Assembly (NCBI GenBank): GCA_900120415.1
Contig: FQLW01000006.1
Coordinates: 124,001 to 188,000, forward strand
Source of the DNA: Urmitella timonensis
GTDB taxonomy: Bacteria > Actinomycetota > Actinomycetes > Actinomycetales > Actinomycetaceae
Direction: 5' to 3'
DNA length: 64,000 nt
The translations under genes were made by a program, and so were the position numbers. The stretch's first letter is position 1; every line of letters starts with the position of its first letter. Positions 7,302 to 14,530 of the stretch are shown here, one piece after another. The notes under the pieces are model-generated. The model was not told the DNA's origin, ran no database searches, and was given only the letters and a program-made list of their open reading frames with translations.

Positions 7302-8522
7302 ATGCCGAAGTTGCGTCCTTTCCGTGCGCTGCGTCCCACTAGCGAGGCTGCCCCGCAGGTAGTGGCACTGCCCTATGACGTTATGAACCGTGAGGAAGCT
7401 GCCGCGCAGGGCAAAGACCCGAACTCTTATCTGCATATCACGCGCGCGGAAATTGATTTGCCCCTAAGCGTGGATCAACACGCTGATCAAGTGCATGAGC
7501 AAGCTGCCGCCAATCTAGCGGATTTCATTGACCGGGGCGTGCTGGTTCGCGAAGACCGCCCTTGCCTATATCTTTACCGGGAGACTTGGCGAGGAAGAGC
7601 CCAGGTAGGAATCGTAGGATGTGCCCAGGTTGGCGATTATCAAGACGGCACTATTAAACGGCACGAGAAGACTTTAGCGATTAAGGAAGCCGACCGGATT
7701 AAACATTTTGACCGGGTGAATGCCCATACTGAACCGGTATTTCTCACCTATCGCGCCCGTGAAGAAATAGACGCCCTCACCGCGCGGGTAACTCAAGACC
7801 AGCCACTGCTCAAAGGAGAAACTTTGGAGGGCACTGTCCATGAACTATGGCCGCTCTCGCTGGAAGACACTTCTTTAGCTAGCGGCATCTTTGAATCATT
7901 GGACTATTTTTATATTGCCGATGGACATCACCGCTCGGCTTCCGCGGCCAAAGTGGGACTTTCTCGCCCCCGGCGCGCAGATGCCCCCTGGAATGAATTC
8001 CTAGCGGTCGCGGTTCCCGACCACGACCTGCGGTGTCTGCCCTATAACCGGCTGGTGCTTGATTGGGGAGATACCACCCCCGAACAGTTTTTGAAAGACT
8101 TATCGCAGGTAGTAGCGCTAAGTGAACTAGGCGAGTTTGCTGCCCCGGAAAATGCTGGTGCTTTCAGTATGTATCTCGGCGGCAAATGGTATGCCTGCCG
8201 CTTCCGTCCCCAGGTTTTAGCCGGTAAAGAGCTGCCTGATTCTTTAGATGTGTCTTTGCTGCAGGAACAGGTACTTGCTCCCCTGCTGGGAATTACCAAT
8301 CCGCGCACCAGTGAACGTATCGAGTTCGTAGGCGGGATTCGCGGGGACAGCGAACTTAAATCAGCGGTAGATAAGGGCGCTGCCTGCGCGTTCTACATGT
8401 ACCCTACCCAGATTAACCAGGTAATGGAGGTGGCTGACGCGGGGCAAATCATGCCCCCTAAATCCACTTGGTTTGAACCGAAACTGGGCAGCGGCCTGTT
8501 TGCCCATCCCCTCTGGGATTAG
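7302..8522 (+). CDS. DUF1015 family protein
   Basis: This ~406-aa soluble protein belongs to the DUF1015 family: it begins PKLRPFRALRP, followed by VVALPYDVM and the motif YIADGHHRSASA (DGHHR near residues 207-211). That box recalls the ParB/Srx-fold GHHR motif, but the reaction is not established from sequence here. Two ATGs lie in tandem at 7299 and 7302; AGGAG at 7291-7295 is 6 nt from the second, so 7302 is preferred. It is divergent from miaB and convergent with uppS, with no obvious functional partner. Confidence 0.88.
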   Translation: MPKLRPFRALRPTSEAAPQVVALPYDVMNREEAAAQGKDPNSYLHITRAEIDLPLSVDQHADQVHEQAAANLADFIDRGVLVREDRPCLYLYRETWRGRAQVGIVGCAQVGDYQDGTIKRHEKTLAIKEADRIKHFDRVNAHTEPVFLTYRAREEIDALTARVTQDQPLLKGETLEGTVHELWPLSLEDTSLASGIFESLDYFYIADGHHRSASAAKVGLSRPRRADAPWNEFLAVAVPDHDLRCLPYNRLVLDWGDTTPEQFLKDLSQVVALSELGEFAAPENAGAFSMYLGGKWYACRFRPQVLAGKELPDSLDVSLLQEQVLAPLLGITNPRTSERIEFVGGIRGDSELKSAVDKGAACAFYMYPTQINQVMEVADAGQIMPPKSTWFEPKLGSGLFAHPLWD

Positions 8523-8622
8523 GCGGCGGGCTGCATTTTCTACTTTCTCGGCCCCGAACTGCGAACCGGTTTAGGATTTACCGGGGTTTAGCGCCTTTGT
8601 TATTACGAGGACGCAGGCAGAC

Positions 8623-9405
8623 TTAAGCCGGGCGAGGTTGGTCTTTCGCGCCCCCAAAACGCCGATTGCGTCCTCCAAATGCGGCTAGTTCCCGCCAGAG
8701 TTGTTCGCGTTTAAACTCTGGCCACATCTCGGGAACGAAGCTCAGCTCCGCATAGGCGCATTGCCACAGTAAAAAGTTAGAAAGGCGTTGTTCCCCGGAG
8801 GTGCGAATCAGTAAATCCACATCCGGCATTCCCCCCAGATACATTTCCCGCGCCAAGGTGTCCTCGCGGACATGGTTTTCACTGATTTCCCCGGACGCCA
8901 CCCGGCGGGCAACCGAGCGAGCCGCATCAACCAGTTCCGCGCGCCCTCCATAGTTAATACACATGTTAAACACCAGGCCGGTGTTATTTTGGGTCAGTTC
9001 GGCGGCCGCTTCCAGCTCCTTGATAACCGATTTCCATAGCCGACCGCGCCGCCCCGACCAGACTATACGCACGTTCCAGTCGTTTAGTTCGTGGGAGCGC
9101 CGGCGAATCACATCCCGTGAATACCCCATCAGGAAACGTACTTCCGCGGGAGAACGTTTCCAGTTTTCGGTGGAAAAAGCATATACGCTCACCATTTTTA
9201 CCCCGGCCTCTACTGCCCCGGCCAGGGTGTCCATGAGCGACAATTCCCCGGCCTGGTGTCCTGCCGTGCGCGGTAATCCCTGCTGGTTAGCCCAACGCCC
9301 GTTGCCGTCCATGATTAGCGCCACGTGGGAGGGAACTGACGATAATGGGGGCATTGGGCTACCTTGCCCGGGGGGAACGGTGGCTACGAAGTCTTTATCG
9401 CTCAT
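8623..9405 (-). CDS. uppS: Isoprenyl transferase (cis-prenyl diphosphate synthase)
   Basis: UppS condenses isopentenyl diphosphate onto an allylic primer in the cis configuration to make the C50-C55 carrier lipid for cell wall synthesis. The 260-aa protein carries HVALIMDGNGRWA with catalytic D33, then SVYAFSTENWKRS, FNMCINYGGRAE and LLIRTSGEQRLSNF followed by QCAYAEL, the five conserved regions of the family. Actinobacteria often have two such enzymes (short Z-FPP and long chain), and the chain length made here cannot be read from sequence. It lies 7 bp downstream of recO and is probably co-transcribed with it. Confidence 0.95.
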   Translation of the reverse strand: MSDKDFVATVPPGQGSPMPPLSSVPSHVALIMDGNGRWANQQGLPRTAGHQAGELSLMDTLAGAVEAGVKMVSVYAFSTENWKRSPAEVRFLMGYSRDVIRRRSHELNDWNVRIVWSGRRGRLWKSVIKELEAAAELTQNNTGLVFNMCINYGGRAELVDAARSVARRVASGEISENHVREDTLAREMYLGGMPDVDLLIRTSGEQRLSNFLLWQCAYAELSFVPEMWPEFKREQLWRELAAFGGRNRRFGGAKDQPRPA

Positions 9406-9412
9406 ATTCTTA

Positions 9413-10144
9413 TTATGCCTTGCGTGCCATCACGGACAGGGATTTTAGCTTTCGCTCTAACACCCATTCGGTATAGGCAGTGACCACTTCTTCTGCTATC
9501 CCCTGAGTTAGCGGATCCGCCTGGTAGACCTGTGGCCACTGTCCCGCCAACAGCGCGGCGAGCAGGTCGGTTACTGGCTTAGAAATGCGGATACCTCCGC
9601 TTAACTGACAGTTTTCGCAAACTACCCCACCTGCAGGTGCGGAAAAAACTTTAAAGGGACCCGCAGTACCACAGAGGGCGCACTGGTCTAAAGCCGGCGC
9701 CCATCCGGCAATGGTTAGGGTACGCAATAGGTAGGAGGATAGAACCATGCCGGGGCGGTGCGCCCGATTTGCTAAAGCGGGTATTGCGCCAGCTAGCAAA
9801 CGATATTGACTGCGCGAAGCCTCGCCCTCGGAAAGCTTCTCGGCAGTTTCTAGCATTACCTGCCCCGAGAGGTACCGTTCATAGTCGCAAGCGATTTTCG
9901 GAGCATTGAGACTGAGCGAAGTGGCGTGAGTAACCGTGTCCAGGTTACGCCCGGAGTGTAGCTGCAGCTTTACCCGGTTGAAGGGGCTCAGGCGCGCCCC
10001 AAATTTTGAGGAGGTGCGGCGCAGTCCTTTAGCTACCGCCCGCACCTGCCCATGCTCGAGGGTGAGCAGGGTCAAGATCATGTCTGCTTCCCCTAGCTTG
10101 GTGGTTCTCAGGACTATCGCCTGGTCGATATAGGTTCGCAGCAC
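9413..10144 (-). CDS. recO: DNA repair protein RecO
   Basis: RecO anneals single strands and loads RecA with RecR in gap repair. The 243-aa protein has the N-terminal OB-fold (DQAIVLRTTKLGEADMILTL) and a helical C-terminal part with a zinc-binding CALCG / CENC pair. The recO-uppS pair is a known actinobacterial arrangement. The start is the first ATG, within MLRTYIDQAIVLR. The 200 bp upstream hold a 23-bp tandem repeat. Confidence 0.95.
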   Translation of the reverse strand: MLRTYIDQAIVLRTTKLGEADMILTLLTLEHGQVRAVAKGLRRTSSKFGARLSPFNRVKLQLHSGRNLDTVTHATSLSLNAPKIACDYERYLSGQVMLETAEKLSEGEASRSQYRLLAGAIPALANRAHRPGMVLSSYLLRTLTIAGWAPALDQCALCGTAGPFKVFSAPAGGVVCENCQLSGGIRISKPVTDLLAALLAGQWPQVYQADPLTQGIAEEVVTAYTEWVLERKLKSLSVMARKA

Positions 10145-10255
10145 CCGCTCATTATCTCATATCTAGTTGCTAGGTCAGCTCATATAGTTCACAGGGGCTT
10201 GGGGTGACTACTAGCGCTCTCCTCCGCAAATGCGAATATCCGCAGCCACCCAAAT

Positions 10256-10323
10256 CCTGCAAAACGATTGCTAGAACCCCTGCAAAACGATTGCTAGAAC
10301 CCCTGCAAAACGATTGCTAGAGC
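10256..10323. repeat. Iteron array 1: three 23-bp tandem repeats
   Basis: CCTGCAAAACGATTGCTAG recurs with a 23-bp period starting at 10256, 10279 and 10302. The copies are essentially identical. Read on the minus strand the unit is TAGCAATCGTTTTGCAGG plus a 5-nt linker, which shares TAGC-N5-TTTTGCAG and the 23-bp period with arrays 2 and 3. It lies 24 bp past the stop of the DUF4143 ATPase gene. Confidence 0.9.
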
Positions 10324-10347
10324 ATTATAAATGCACTTCAGCAAGTT

Positions 10348-11673
10348 TTAAACGCCCAAAGCTTGAATTGGAAATGTAAAGGTAGGAACGTCATTTTCCA
10401 GCTTCGTGAGCTTAGCTATCGGTCCAGCCAGAGTAACTACTGCCAGGAACGAAGGTTTCTTCATCACCTCTAAATCGAGCGTATTCACGATTTCTTGCAG
10501 TTTTTGCCCTGCTTGAGAGATTTTGGCGGTTCCTAGTTTGACTTCGATACCTGCCCAGCGCCCATCAGGAAGAGTAACAATTCCATCGATTTCCCGACCG
10601 GAGCTATCGCGGTAGTGATAGAGCCTACCTCCTAAAAAGCTAATCAGGGTATGTAGATCATGGAGAACGGCGCTTTCTAATATCAAGCCGAGAGTTTTCG
10701 GGTCATAGGCTAGCTGAGTAGGCGTAGTTCCCAGAAGATTAACCGCCATAGCTGGATCAGCTAGATGATATTTACTGGCCGTACGCAGCCTTGCTCTCGT
10801 ACGTAGCTGCGGCAACCAGGCAGGAATCTCTTGAACTACAAAAATCCTCCCTAGTAGTTCCAGATAGTTAGAAATGGTTCTATTTTGGATTTCTGCTGCT
10901 AGTCGCATGATGTCGCGGCGAATCGTGTCTATCGTTAACTCACTAATCACGCTGCGCGCTACCGACTGTAGGACTGCCTTGATCACTTGCGGAGAATGCC
11001 GAATCTCGGCGAGGCGAGACAAATCTAGGCGGGTTACCTCATCAATATATGCACTGATACGGCGGGAAGAAAGCGAAAAGTCATCATAGAGCATATCGGG
11101 GAATCCCGGGCGGCATAGCAGATTGATTGCCGAGGTGGGGTCATCTTGACCAGGGAAAAGGTCAGGGAATTCCCCCGCAAATAAGTTGCGTAGGGATATA
11201 GATGGCATTGAGCTACCCTTGCCCAGAACTTGGTCTTTTTCACAGGTAGTCATGGTTTGCTGGGTAAGACGCAAGAAGCGTCCCGCCCCAGTATGTCTGG
11301 TAATGTCATCAGCTGGGAGGGCGGATCCGGTCAAAATGAAACGTCCGCGCTCCGCCCTGCCGTCTACCTCGCGGCGAACTAGATTCCAGCTTTCGGGGAT
11401 AACCTGCCATTCATCTAACAGTCGGGGGGTATCACCACGAAGAAGTAATTCAGGTTGAAAATCAAAGATTTCTTTTGCGTGGGGAGTATCTAAAAAGATA
11501 TAAGAGTTAGCCGCATTTAGGGCGCTCATAGTTTTTCCGCACCCACGAGGACCCTCGATTATAACGGCGCCTACCCCGTGCAGGATTTCTTGCAAGGCGC
11601 TATCAATCATTCGGGGTAGATAGGGTCTACCCACTATTGCTTCGGTATCCACATGCTTATTATAGCAGTTCAA
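10348..11673 (-). CDS. AAA ATPase with DUF4143 domain
   Basis: This 441-aa protein is of the AAA_14/DUF4143 type. Walker A is GPRGCGKT (residues 41-48), Walker B is RLLDEWQ (D87 E88), sensor region FILTGSA. The C-terminal half contains GREIDGIV and GIEVKLG, a D-E-K pattern of the PD-(D/E)XK nuclease fold. The family is widespread, patchily distributed and of uncertain function; membership in defence or toxin-antitoxin-like modules has been suggested, not shown here. The gene stands alone and is flanked by 23-bp repeat arrays in inverted orientation, which suggests a mobile or exchangeable cassette. Confidence 0.88.
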   Translation of the reverse strand: MNCYNKHVDTEAIVGRPYLPRMIDSALQEILHGVGAVIIEGPRGCGKTMSALNAANSYIFLDTPHAKEIFDFQPELLLRGDTPRLLDEWQVIPESWNLVRREVDGRAERGRFILTGSALPADDITRHTGAGRFLRLTQQTMTTCEKDQVLGKGSSMPSISLRNLFAGEFPDLFPGQDDPTSAINLLCRPGFPDMLYDDFSLSSRRISAYIDEVTRLDLSRLAEIRHSPQVIKAVLQSVARSVISELTIDTIRRDIMRLAAEIQNRTISNYLELLGRIFVVQEIPAWLPQLRTRARLRTASKYHLADPAMAVNLLGTTPTQLAYDPKTLGLILESAVLHDLHTLISFLGGRLYHYRDSSGREIDGIVTLPDGRWAGIEVKLGTAKISQAGQKLQEIVNTLDLEVMKKPSFLAVVTLAGPIAKLTKLENDVPTFTFPIQALGV

Positions 11674-11679
11674 AAGCTC

Positions 11680-11748
11680 TAGCGCACTTTTTGCAGACGC
11701 CCTAGCGCACTTTTTGCAGACGTTCTAGCGCAGGTTTTGCAGACATCC
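11680..11748. repeat. Iteron array 2: three 23-bp tandem repeats
   Basis: Units start TAGCGCACTTTTTGCAGACG at 11680 and 11703, and TAGCGCAGGTTTTGCAGAC at 11726. They abut a copy of the leuA 3' end at 11749. The array faces the opposite way to array 1, so the two bracket the ATPase gene as inverted repeats, and it is a direct copy of array 3. Confidence 0.9.
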
Positions 11749-11826
11749 TAGCGTTCCGCGCGGTTGAGGGCGCTAATAACCGCCTTATACGTAGCGCGAG
11801 TAATCGAAGGATCGATACCTACTCCC
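11749..11826 (-). pseudogene. Detached, diverged copy of the leuA 3' end
   Basis: These 78 bp match the last codons and stop of leuA (12728-12805) without gaps and with about six substitutions. Together with iteron array 2 they form a 147-bp direct repeat (11680-11826 and 12659-12805, constant offset 979). The sequence is not part of a functional gene. It looks like an attachment-type duplication, or the scar of an insertion at the end of leuA. Confidence 0.85.
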
Positions 11827-11887
11827 TCACCTCGAATACGTAGCTACTAGCAGTGAAACTCTGATTGGCAACTGATAGCATGATTTT

Positions 11888-12223
11888 GTGTTCGTTGATA
11901 CCCCAGGTAGCTTAACTCCGGAAACGATGCAGTTGCGCGCCCTATTAGCCGCAAATATCAACGAGTTTCGATCTTTACTGGAAAAATACGGAGCCTCTAA
12001 TCCGCTGCTTTTTGGCTCGGTAGCCCGTGGCGATGCCAACGCTAAAAGCGACATCGACATCTTGGTTGAGATGAGCCCCGAGGACGGAAACCTGTTGATG
12101 CGGGCGAGCGGGCTATTGGCGGAAACCCGGGAGCTTTTAGGGAAAAATATAGATATTTTCCCTGTTCAACTAGTAAAATCAGAGGTTAATCAGCAAGCAC
12201 TCGATGAGGCAGTACCGCTATGA
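11888..12223 (+). CDS. mntA: MNT-family minimal nucleotidyltransferase, antitoxin of HEPN pair
   Basis: This small protein (111 aa from the GTG, 98 aa from the ATG at 11927) has the nucleotidyltransferase signature GSVARGDANAKSDIDI: G43 S44 and metal ligands D55 and D57. In characterised MntA-HepT pairs this enzyme neutralises the HEPN RNase by adding AMP units to a tyrosine. The ATG at 11927 gives an N-terminus closer to the usual family length, and neither start has a clear ribosome site. It overlaps the following gene by 4 bp (ATGA), so the two are translationally coupled. The pair lies between direct repeats that copy the leuA end. Confidence 0.9.
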   Translation: MFVDTPGSLTPETMQLRALLAANINEFRSLLEKYGASNPLLFGSVARGDANAKSDIDILVEMSPEDGNLLMRASGLLAETRELLGKNIDIFPVQLVKSEVNQQALDEAVPL

Positions 12224-12567
12224 TTCGAGACGATAAATCACGCTGCCAAGACATTTTACGAGCAATTAACAAATGTGAATGCTATCTGAAACAACTAACC
12301 CCTGATAGCTCTGCCGAGTTTACTGAGATGGTAGAGGATGCTATAGAACGGAACCTACAAATAATAGGGGAAGCCGCCAGCCGTTTGTCTTGTAAGGTCA
12401 CCGACTCAAATCCAGATATTCCCTGGACGCAAATCAGAGGATTTCGCAATATTCTAGTTCACGAATATTTCGGAGTTGATATCCAGATAATCAGGGACGT
12501 AGTCGAAAACCACTTACCAGCATTAAAGAGCGCGTTAGAGAATCACCTTAAACGGACACAGCCTTAA
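12220..12567 (+). CDS. hepT: HEPN-domain RNase toxin (HepT-like, DUF86)
   Basis: This 115-aa helical protein belongs to the DUF86/HEPN family. The catalytic motif R-x4-H-x-Y is intact as R76, H81 and Y83 in RNILVHEY. In studied relatives R and H cut RNA, and the Tyr is the site that MntA modifies. It overlaps the MNT antitoxin by 4 bp. The gene looks complete, with no frameshift, so a working toxin-antitoxin pair is likely. Base composition is slightly more A+T-rich than neighbouring core genes, consistent with transfer. Confidence 0.9.
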   Translation: MIRDDKSRCQDILRAINKCECYLKQLTPDSSAEFTEMVEDAIERNLQIIGEAASRLSCKVTDSNPDIPWTQIRGFRNILVHEYFGVDIQIIRDVVENHLPALKSALENHLKRTQP

Positions 12568-12658
12568 AAACACCTGGTTGTTCAAGCGATGATCTCTACA
12601 AAGACGGAGTAGCAGTGATTCCTCTGTCGCTCCTAGGTTAATGCAGCTCAGAAAGTGC

Positions 12659-12727
12659 TAGCGGACTATTTGCAGACACCCTAGCGCACTATTTGCAGAT
12701 GTTCTAACGCAGGTTTTGCAGACGCCC
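12659..12727. repeat. Iteron array 3: three 23-bp tandem repeats next to the leuA stop
   Basis: Units begin at 12659 (TAGCGGACTATTTGCAGAC), 12682 (TAGCGCACTATTTGCAGAT) and 12705 (TAACGCAGGTTTTGCAGAC). A fourth start, TAGCGC at 12728, falls on the leuA stop codon. The array is a direct copy of array 2. Confidence 0.9.
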
Positions 12728-14478
12728 TAGCGCTCGGCGCGGTTGAGGGCGCTAATAACCGCCTTATAGGTAGCGCGAGTAATCGAAGAATCAATACCTA
12801 CTCCCCACAGCACCTGACCGGCAATCTCGGCCTCCACATAGGCAGCTGCCCGCGAACTCTCACCGGTTTCCATCGCGTGCTCGACATAGTCCAGCACCTT
12901 AATATCCAGACCCAGCCCTTGGAAAGCAGAAATAAACGCCTCAATAGGGCCGGGCGCCACCGCCTCTAAAGTGCGCAAAGTACCGTTATCTATAACCCGT
13001 GCCCGCAAGGACACTTCCCCAGTTTCATGATTGTTATCTGCGCGCGAATCACGCAGTTTAAAGCGCCCCCAAGGCGAAAGGTTATGTTCCTCTCCGGGCA
13101 AATACTCGTCAGCGAAAATCTTCCACAAATGCTGTGAATCGACCTCGCCCCCAAACTTTTCCGTATAGTCCTGGACATGGCGATAGAACTCTATCTGCAA
13201 GCGGCGCGGCAAATCCAAAGAGTAGTCACGTTTCATCAGGAACGCGATACCGCCCTTGCCAGACTGGGAGTTCACCCGCACCACAGCCTGGTAGTCGCGT
13301 CCTACATCACCGGGATCAATCGGCAGGTACGGAACCGCCCAAATTACCTGGTTCTGATTACCGCCACCAGCCGCAACTTCCCGGGCACGCTTATCAAAGC
13401 CCTTCTTAATGGCATCCTGGTGAGAGCCAGAGAAGGAAGTGTAAACCAGATCGCCAGTATAGGGCTGGCGGGGATTAGTTTCCATCCGGGTGCAATACTC
13501 TACGGTTTCACGCACCCGATCCAGGTTGGACAAATCCAACATGGGGTCGATTCCTTGGGAATAAAGATTCATTGCCAAAGTAATCAAATCTACGTTGCCA
13601 GTGCGCTCCCCCTGCCCCAATAGGCAGCCTTCTACCCGGTCAGCACCGGCTTTCATAGATAGTTCTGCCGCAGCAATCCCCGTTCCCCGGTCATTATGGT
13701 TATGTACCGACAAACAGACGTGTTCACGGCGACTCAGGTTCCGGCTCATCCATTCGATTTGATCCGCATAAGAGTCCGGGGTGTAACGCTCCACAGTTGC
13801 CGGCAGGTTCAAAATAATTTCGCGATCCTCATCAGGCTGCCAAATATCCATGACCGCTTCACAGATTTCCAGGGCGAACTCGGCTTCGGTATCCACGAAG
13901 ATTTCTGGAGAATATTGCAGCCCGAAAACCGTGGAATCATCTAATTGCTTTTCAGCTTGCGCGATTACCTCGCGCACCCCGTTTACTGCCAGTTCCACGG
14001 TAGCGGCTTTATCGTTATGGAATACTACTTCCCGAAAAGTCGGTGAGGTGGCGTTATAGATATGAACATTGGCGCGCGGCACCCCCACTAGGGACTCTAC
14101 GGTGCGTCCGATTAAATCTTCACGCGCCTGAGTAAGTACCGAAACGCACACGTCCTCGGGAATCGCGTTATCTTCAACCAGCGAGCGCACGAAATCAAAA
14201 TCTATCTGCGAGGCAGCCGGAAACCCAATCTCGATTTCTTTCAAGCCAATCTGCACTAACAAATCAAACAATTTGCGTTTACGCCTCGAATCCATCGGCT
14301 CAATCAACGCCTGATTACCGTCCCGCAAATCCGTAGATAGCCAACGGGGAGCCTGGGTAACATTTCTATCTGGCCAGGTACGATTTGGTAGTTTCAGGGA
14401 ACTATCCCAAAAATGAGCATATTTTTGAAACGGCATTCCAGAAGGCTGCTGCCGGGGAGCTTTACCAGTAGTTCGCAT
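12727..14478 (-). CDS. leuA: 2-isopropylmalate synthase
   Basis: LeuA condenses acetyl-CoA with 2-ketoisovalerate, the first committed step of leucine synthesis. At 583 aa it is of the long actinobacterial type: a TIM-barrel catalytic domain (STDLRDGNQAL; metal-binding HNHNDRG) followed by a C-terminal regulatory domain that binds leucine. The start in MRTTGKAPRQQPSG has a plausible upstream GGGAAGA. A leader peptide and hairpin lie just ahead of the gene. Its 3' end is duplicated about 1 kb downstream, next to 23-bp repeats. Confidence 0.97.
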   Translation of the reverse strand: MRTTGKAPRQQPSGMPFQKYAHFWDSSLKLPNRTWPDRNVTQAPRWLSTDLRDGNQALIEPMDSRRKRKLFDLLVQIGLKEIEIGFPAASQIDFDFVRSLVEDNAIPEDVCVSVLTQAREDLIGRTVESLVGVPRANVHIYNATSPTFREVVFHNDKAATVELAVNGVREVIAQAEKQLDDSTVFGLQYSPEIFVDTEAEFALEICEAVMDIWQPDEDREIILNLPATVERYTPDSYADQIEWMSRNLSRREHVCLSVHNHNDRGTGIAAAELSMKAGADRVEGCLLGQGERTGNVDLITLAMNLYSQGIDPMLDLSNLDRVRETVEYCTRMETNPRQPYTGDLVYTSFSGSHQDAIKKGFDKRAREVAAGGGNQNQVIWAVPYLPIDPGDVGRDYQAVVRVNSQSGKGGIAFLMKRDYSLDLPRRLQIEFYRHVQDYTEKFGGEVDSQHLWKIFADEYLPGEEHNLSPWGRFKLRDSRADNNHETGEVSLRARVIDNGTLRTLEAVAPGPIEAFISAFQGLGLDIKVLDYVEHAMETGESSRAAAYVEAEIAGQVLWGVGIDSSITRATYKAVISALNRAER

Positions 14479-14530
14479 GGGAAGATTTCTTTCTGCTCAG
14501 TTAGATGGCTGGCCGAAATGGCAAATAAAC

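Follow-up and report, generated by a model that had tools for sequence, protein, structure and literature searches.

Private repeat arrays upstream of DUF4143 (PDC-S01) ATPase-nuclease genes are probable operators read by the genes' own winged helices

Many genes for DUF4143 proteins, which join an ATPase to a nuclease of the PD-(D/E)XK kind, are preceded by a tandem array of short repeats, and these arrays are upstream elements that are private to each gene, fall into fixed period classes and lie next to the promoter. We consider it likely, with a probability of roughly two in three, that each array is the operator of its own DUF4143 (PDC-S01) gene, that the winged helix of the encoded protein binds the core of the repeat unit, and that the gene's own promoter is held low as a result. 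A full-text search of published papers returned no description of such arrays upstream of DUF4143 genes. Our point of departure was a stretch of 64,000 nucleotides from Urmitella timonensis (contig FQLW01000006.1, positions 124,001 to 188,000; hereafter the window), in which a first-pass annotation had noted a DUF4143 gene bracketed by repeats with a period of 23 bp.

Table 1. Repeat arrays, genes and gene remnants between recO and leuA in the window
Feature	Coordinates	Strand	Description	Basis	Assignment
recO	9413..10144	-	left-hand flank	Pfam; in 6/6 genus members	
Array 1	10257..10325	-	three 23-bp units, CTAGCAATCGTTTTGCAG type	TRF 10256-10321, 2.9 copies, 100%	probable upstream array of lost gene B
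DUF4143 gene A	10348..11652	-	AAA_14 ATPase, predicted winged helix, PD-(D/E)XK nuclease	Pfam AAA_14 + DUF4143	
Gene A -10 box, TATAAT	11659..11664	-	6 bp before GTG, 14 bp from array	sequence	
Array 2	11674..11742	+	three 23-bp units, CTAGCGCACTTTTTGCAG type	TRF 11679-11753, 3.3 copies, 88%	promoter array of gene A
leuA 3' end, second copy	11748..11830	-	beside array 2	direct repeat with 12643-12808	
MNT nucleotidyltransferase, MntA-like antitoxin	11888..12223	+		Pfam NTP_transf_2	
HEPN / HepT-like toxin	12220..12567	+		Pfam HepT-like	
Gene B 3' end remnant	12597..12641	+	15 codons including stop, beside array 3		
Array 3	12653..12721	+	A type, at leuA end	TRF 12658-12733, 3.3 copies, 75%	
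leuA	12727..14478	-	right-hand flank	Pfam; in 6/6 genus members	

The window contains exactly three tandem arrays, and Tandem Repeats Finder (TRF) assigned all three a period of 23 bp, just as the annotation had described them (Table 1). Arrays 1 and 2 are indeed mutually inverted on either side of the DUF4143 gene, and array 3 is oriented like array 2. The window holds six mismatch-free copies of the core TAGC-N5-TTTTGCAG, as compared to a mean of 0.005 in 200 mononucleotide shuffles. A search of the 2.14-Mb genome for this core, which the annotation had proposed, returned six perfect matches, all of them in arrays 1 and 2, whereas each of the three units of array 3 departs from it by one mismatch. 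Arrays 2 and 3 lie within a longer direct repeat (154 bp at 90% in one comparison, 167 bp at 89% in another) that contains the 3' end of leuA and surrounds a toxin-antitoxin pair. The likely start codon of gene A is the GTG at 11652, and the open frame extends to a TTG at 11673. As for the pair, it is of the type VII kind, and its proteins carry the expected Pfam domains; against the curated NCBIfam models, MNT scored 38.7 bits (MntA) and HEPN 52.2 bits (HepT), both under the 60-bit cut-off. The MNT protein is also a match to PADLOC PDC-S09.

The pattern TTTGCAG-N16-TTTGCAG occurs 54 times, in 25 of the 213 genomes of the family, as compared to a single match for the reversed pattern, and the unit is thus neither dispersed at random nor confined to the window, the two outcomes that the annotation had named as counting against it. 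Neighboring genes were tabulated, likewise at its suggestion: of the 24 other genomes in which the pattern occurs, 17 have a DUF4143 gene inside the fetched locus, and as a rule its start codon adjoins the array. Meanwhile, the best-scoring DUF4143 genes of the family have arrays with quite different units. A GTDB-wide scan revealed upstream periodicity at 52 of 80 loci, with a period of 23 or 46 in 50 of the 52; the corresponding figures were 4 of 80 on the downstream side and 0 of 80 for shuffles. A second class, with a period of 32-34, emerged from 104 scored loci, which comprised nearly all the long-frame matches of six multi-copy genomes and the best of ten other genomes. Finally, 60 further family genes, picked among the matches listed, together with the four DUF4143 genes of the window's own genome, yielded arrays in 49 of 64 cases (one of them a run of N). 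All four of the genome's own genes have arrays, with four different units and ends 19-32 bp before the start.

Altogether, an upstream tandem array was detected at 146 of 248 unique DUF4143 genes that had not been chosen for repeats and at none of 248 shuffles. Other genes of the same loci had such an array in 7 of 119 cases, a figure that is if anything high because the 119 include some genes tied to DUF4143 loci. The period was 22-24 bp or its double in 122 of the arrays, 32-34 bp in 22 and other in 2, and 135 of the 146 end no more than 100 bp from the start codon. By source, arrays were present at 50 of 77 genes from the GTDB scan, 34 of 75 from multi-copy genomes, 4 of 7 from viral contigs, and, within the family, 11 of 27 in the best set and 47 of 62 in the second set. 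Left out of the 248 were 18 genes ascertained by their array (17 of them scored), the window gene (L276) and the gene with the run of N (L327); genes with less than 200 bp upstream were unscored. For the control set, 23 divergent DUF4143 genes were reassigned to the family, and 35 loci offered no further candidate. The other 102 of the 248 genes had no array at our threshold, and two genomes (G223 and G227) had few; the array is therefore best regarded as a property of subfamilies. A comparison with ATPase_2 (PF01637) genes in six genomes gave 15 genes in three of them. Four of the ten in genome G222 (L281, L284, L289 and L290) have arrays of 51-54 bp just upstream, at least two of these with internal inverted repeats, and the other 11 of the 15 fell below the threshold of 14. 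The ATPase_2 set is neither a clean control nor an instance of the same kind of array, and it may be that private operators of a different sort serve these related ATPases.

Across 112 arrays, the median number of units is three, and the median distance from array to start codon is 34 bp. For the 23-bp class, a unit profile built from 86 arrays and written in the direction of the gene has a common anchor, (G/C)CAAA, at positions 1-5. Positions 6-13 hold 0.02-0.14 bit across arrays, and neighboring units differ there at 7-21% of sites; positions 14-17 lean toward T-A-R-A, and in the linker (positions 15-21) neighboring units differ at 15-35%. The units are private to each gene, with a shared anchor and an array-specific core. 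Hexamers that resemble TATAAT are most frequent 4-7 and 24-31 bp beyond the array edge, and in 52 of 96 genes the stretch from array edge to start contains one that scores at least 5. The array, being upstream of the likely -10 box, would lie outside the gene's own transcript, and the transcript of gene A is probably leaderless, since its TATAAT is six bases before the GTG. The period classes of 22-24 and 32-34 bp are roughly one helical turn apart, which fits a protein on double-stranded DNA. A structured RNA was also considered and set aside, as Rfam gave no match in positions 8500-14500 and the array would not be transcribed with the gene.

Protein A matches the PADLOC PDC-S01 profile PDLC04790 over residues 17-400 (E 2e-58) and carries Pfam domains AAA_14 and DUF4143, which places it in the PDC-S01 / DUF4143 group; we take this DUF4143 / AAA_14 group to be COG1373. 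In the AlphaFold model (pLDDT 93.7), residues 11-315 match the solved AAA+ ATPases 2qen (Z 15.3, rmsd 4.5, 251 residues) and 2fna (Z 14.3, rmsd 3.5, 241 residues), followed by CED-4 and plant NLRs, and the top Foldseek match, at a low TM-score, is Orc1/Cdc6 on origin DNA (2qby). Consistent with an AAA+ / STAND ATPase, the protein has this fold along with Walker A (G46, K47, T48) and Walker B (D87, E88) residues that are invariant in 62 sequences. The predicted order of elements further on (helices at 228-240, 248-255 and 264-276, strands at 280-283 and 301-304) suggests that residues 228-304 form a winged helix. The C-terminal domain, modeled alone (pLDDT 92.1), best matches McrC (6hz4_N; Z 10.6, rmsd 2.4, 111 residues) and also matches Can2 (Z 8.6, rmsd 4.3, 131 residues) and FokI (Z 8.4, rmsd 4.1, 122 residues), with a best Foldseek E of 2.7e-3. 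Its predicted restriction-endonuclease-like fold and its E, D and ExK residues are those of the PD-(D/E)XK superfamily, and the candidate catalytic residues (E333, D363, E377 and K379) are likewise invariant in the 62 sequences.

If a DUF4143 protein recognizes its own array, then protein and core should vary together. From 150 arrays, 139 had a clear phase, and 98 of these had a phase score of at least 2 with a margin of at least 0.8. With overall identity controlled for, the similarity of cores tracked residues 260-277 (mean partial r 0.05, p 0.003) and residues 196-227 (mean partial r 0.06, p 0.003), small effects at the minimum p attainable with 300 permutations. Under the same control, core similarity had no link to the AAA part (p 0.21) or to the nuclease part (p 0.53), and bases 14-18 had none to the winged helix (p 0.66). 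An earlier run with 79 genes, from which 7 arrays of doubtful phase had been dropped, gave a borderline top window at residues 34-45. We also counted co-changes on a protein tree built without residues 205-304. The top pair was residue 265 with base 9 (16 co-changes, 6.2 expected), with a p of 8.8e-6 that is borderline after correction for about 6,300 pairs; residue 265 with base 11 was fourth and residue 264 with base 10 fifth of all pairs. For base 10, residues 264 and 265 ranked 1 and 2 of 351, and when columns were ranked for the whole core with 98 genes, 265 and 264 came first and second. With these 98 genes, the tree test did not place the winged helix, taken as one, above other columns (p 0.24), and the recognition helix had a p of 0.055; in the 139-gene test, the winged helix was above them (p 0.0023) and the recognition helix more so (p 0.0006), whereas linker bases were not (p 0.54).

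Raw counts, in which relatives are not independent, pair Lys265 with G at base 10 in 11 of 11 cases; Asp265 goes with C at base 10 in 11 of 12 cases and with C at base 9 likewise in 11 of 12. Pairing of lysine with G and of aspartate with C follows known chemistry. Arg295, a wing residue, goes with G1 in 40 of 41 raw cases, but this link fades after tree correction to only 16th of 351. When clusters were left out in turn, residue 265 predicted base 10 correctly in 38 of 68 cases, as compared to 14 of 68 for the nearest relative; there was no gain for residue 265 with base 9 (27 versus 26 of 72) or for residue 295 with base 1 (48 versus 48 of 64 for the majority base). This prediction is weak because single linkage put 80 of the 98 proteins into one cluster. 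From these comparisons we infer, with moderate support, that a gene's own winged helix reads the core of its array, and the covariation lends support to the annotation's suggestion of a DUF4143 protein that binds the repeat.

Most likely, then, each protein controls the promoter of its own gene by binding the array there. The covariation suggests that the winged helix would sit on the array with core bases 9-11 recognized by residues 262-265, at the N-terminus of the recognition helix. From the anatomy, a row of several protein copies would adjoin or cover the -35 region and keep the promoter low, such that a potentially self-harming ATPase-nuclease stays scarce until a trigger releases it. 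A repeat array is found at the gene's own promoter, as self-regulation calls for, and the regulator-binding array that the annotation had named as its second possibility is supported. That the regulation would be negative is suggested by the placement of the array and by the precedent of RptR, which represses a restriction-modification defense island through three direct repeats (PMC12255303). RptR is a small protein of its own that acts at a palindrome of 6 bp (PMC12255303), whereas no separate regulator was seen at the DUF4143 loci, and the array unit there is 22-34 bp long, asymmetric and different for each gene. Within the window, array 2 would drive gene A, array 1 would have belonged to a lost gene B, and array 3 would be a leftover of the A type.

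The history of the locus bears on these assignments. A comparison of the interval between leuA and recO in six members of the genus revealed two DUF4143 genes with two types of array: gene A, with CTAGCGCAC-type units, and gene B, with CTAGCAATCG-type units. In G205, gene B is present together with its own array, and one decayed A unit remains; G206 combines an ABC-transporter cassette with an A array and a gene B whose array counts seven units; in both, the array upstream of intact gene B is of the array 1 type. G204 retains two B units, and G207 and G208, which are gene-less here, retain two and one decayed B units, respectively. The remnant in the window has the same C-terminal motif as the end of intact gene B in G205. 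Array 3 is accompanied by the strip that follows the array in the gene A promoter (the strip between array 3 and the remnant resembles that from array 2 to the gene A -10 box), and the same junction is present in G205 and G206. Array 1 would thus be the old array of gene B, a second DUF4143 gene lost in the window, and array 3 a leftover A-type array beside 15 codons of that gene. On the simplest reading, A was lost first, leaving array 3, and later returned together with array 2, the MNT/HEPN pair and the copy of the leuA end, displacing most of B. As array 1 belongs with B and arrays 2 and 3 are of the A type, the inverted bracketing would be an accident of gene turnover rather than a functional unit. 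The cassette in G206 (L047, 3885-9445) is a set of sugar ABC-transporter, glycosidase-like and LacI-type genes, named by eye from their translations.

The annotation's first possibility was a gene-capture or insertion system, in which the arrays would serve DUF4143 genes and other cargo as ends or as sites of attachment. The presence of the genes is patchy: at a third locus the DUF4143 gene is found in G000 alone, and four relatives share a similar gene-less junction, which may reflect gain in G000 or replacement by recombination. Moreover, the cassette of G206 occupies the same place, and arrays 2 and 3 stand in direct repeat around the toxin-antitoxin pair. We nevertheless consider gene capture quite unlikely. 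A scan of five proteins between recO and leuA, these two included, found no recombinase; the arrays are one-sided, at the promoter of the gene; and the bracketing in the window comes from arrays that stand upstream of two different DUF4143 genes, of which one survives and the other has gone. When insertion boundaries were sought at three loci in six species, the leuA junction proved to retain a gene remnant, which points to a deletion there. Gene-less sites also bear on a docking proposal, in which the ATPase-nuclease would be held inactive on the array, or the array would label DNA as self. A cell that lost the array would then have its nuclease set free, as in single-gene addiction or in a sensor of DNA loss, and orphan arrays would shield cells from which the gene has gone. 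At the gene B locus and two other DUF4143 loci in the six species, there are 12 combinations of species and locus that lack a gene present in another species; 11 of the 12 keep at least one unit, and the invariance of both active sites would suit such a role. Several of these orphans are decayed, however (one unit in G208 at the first locus, one in G204 at the third), and they may be recent leftovers; the placement at the promoter, moreover, is explained without docking, which we regard as improbable. No likelier is its extension to the whole group, in which DUF4143/PDC-S01 proteins would be a large family of self-addressed ATPase-nucleases, each with a DNA word of its own and parked inactive on a private array, with loss, replacement or takeover of that DNA freeing the nuclease and leftover arrays protecting gene-less relatives.

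Two further explanations concern the reader of the arrays and their origin. Direct-repeat operators with small dedicated repressors are known in defense islands, RptR being the example at hand (PMC12255303), and a host regulator other than the DUF4143 protein could bind the arrays in like manner; this seems very unlikely to us, as the units differ from gene to gene (four of four in this genome), which would call for many dedicated regulators, and as their cores covary with the DUF4143 protein's own winged helix. Neutral tandem expansion would account for the variable copy numbers, and the doubled periods of 44-48 bp suggest slippage, but it is contradicted by the counts: with fixed period classes, a fixed place, a core conserved within arrays and enrichment over both shuffles and other genes, we give it almost no credence.

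Several known systems have similar parts. Iteron-bound replication initiators and Orc1/Cdc6 are AAA+ or winged-helix proteins on direct repeats, which in iteron plasmids lie near the initiator's own gene. DUF4143 proteins resemble them in combining such a protein with direct repeats, but the genes are chromosomal, with several per genome, the protein has a nuclease domain, and there is no sign of an origin. McrBC likewise couples an AAA+ motor to a PD-(D/E)XK nuclease, McrC, the best match of the C-terminal domain of protein A, but it consists of two proteins and DUF4143 of one. PDC-S01 has been described as an ATPase fused to PD-(D/E)XK, counted 29,494 times in Bacteria and 9,986 times in Archaea and ranked the fourth most common defense across prokaryotes, with validation pending for most such candidates (PMC12988326). 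The available part of that account makes no mention of upstream repeats or self-regulation (PMC12988326), whereas arrays are found at these genes here. In Thermus thermophilus, a DUF4143 gene is listed with a 6.6-fold change among expression changes caused by plasmid DNA (PMC4406477); this would fit an inducible gene, in one distant member of the group. If each protein reads its own repeat, then DUF4143 genes would control themselves, and the proposal covers the DNA to which a PDC-S01 protein would bind, a way in which its synthesis could be kept low and the residues that would determine specificity. For genes reported to be among the most common putative defense genes in prokaryotes, a gene-specific DNA target for many members is a direct handle. 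A recognition code might also be learned from the family, whose winged helices would have diversified naturally, each along with a matching DNA word.

Finally, we note several loci of unusual arrangement. Orphan arrays that lack their gene, at gene-less junctions common to several species, are seen at L313, L314, L317, L318, L319, L321 and L322; at the second of the three loci compared above, one such junction is common to three species. L145, on a contig that is labeled Nitrososphaerota and may be misbinned, has a bacterial-looking TTGACA/TATAAT promoter after its array. In L019, two arrays in the same direction (87-178 and 1455-1546) surround a single DUF4143 gene, the second placed as it would be for a tandem gene.
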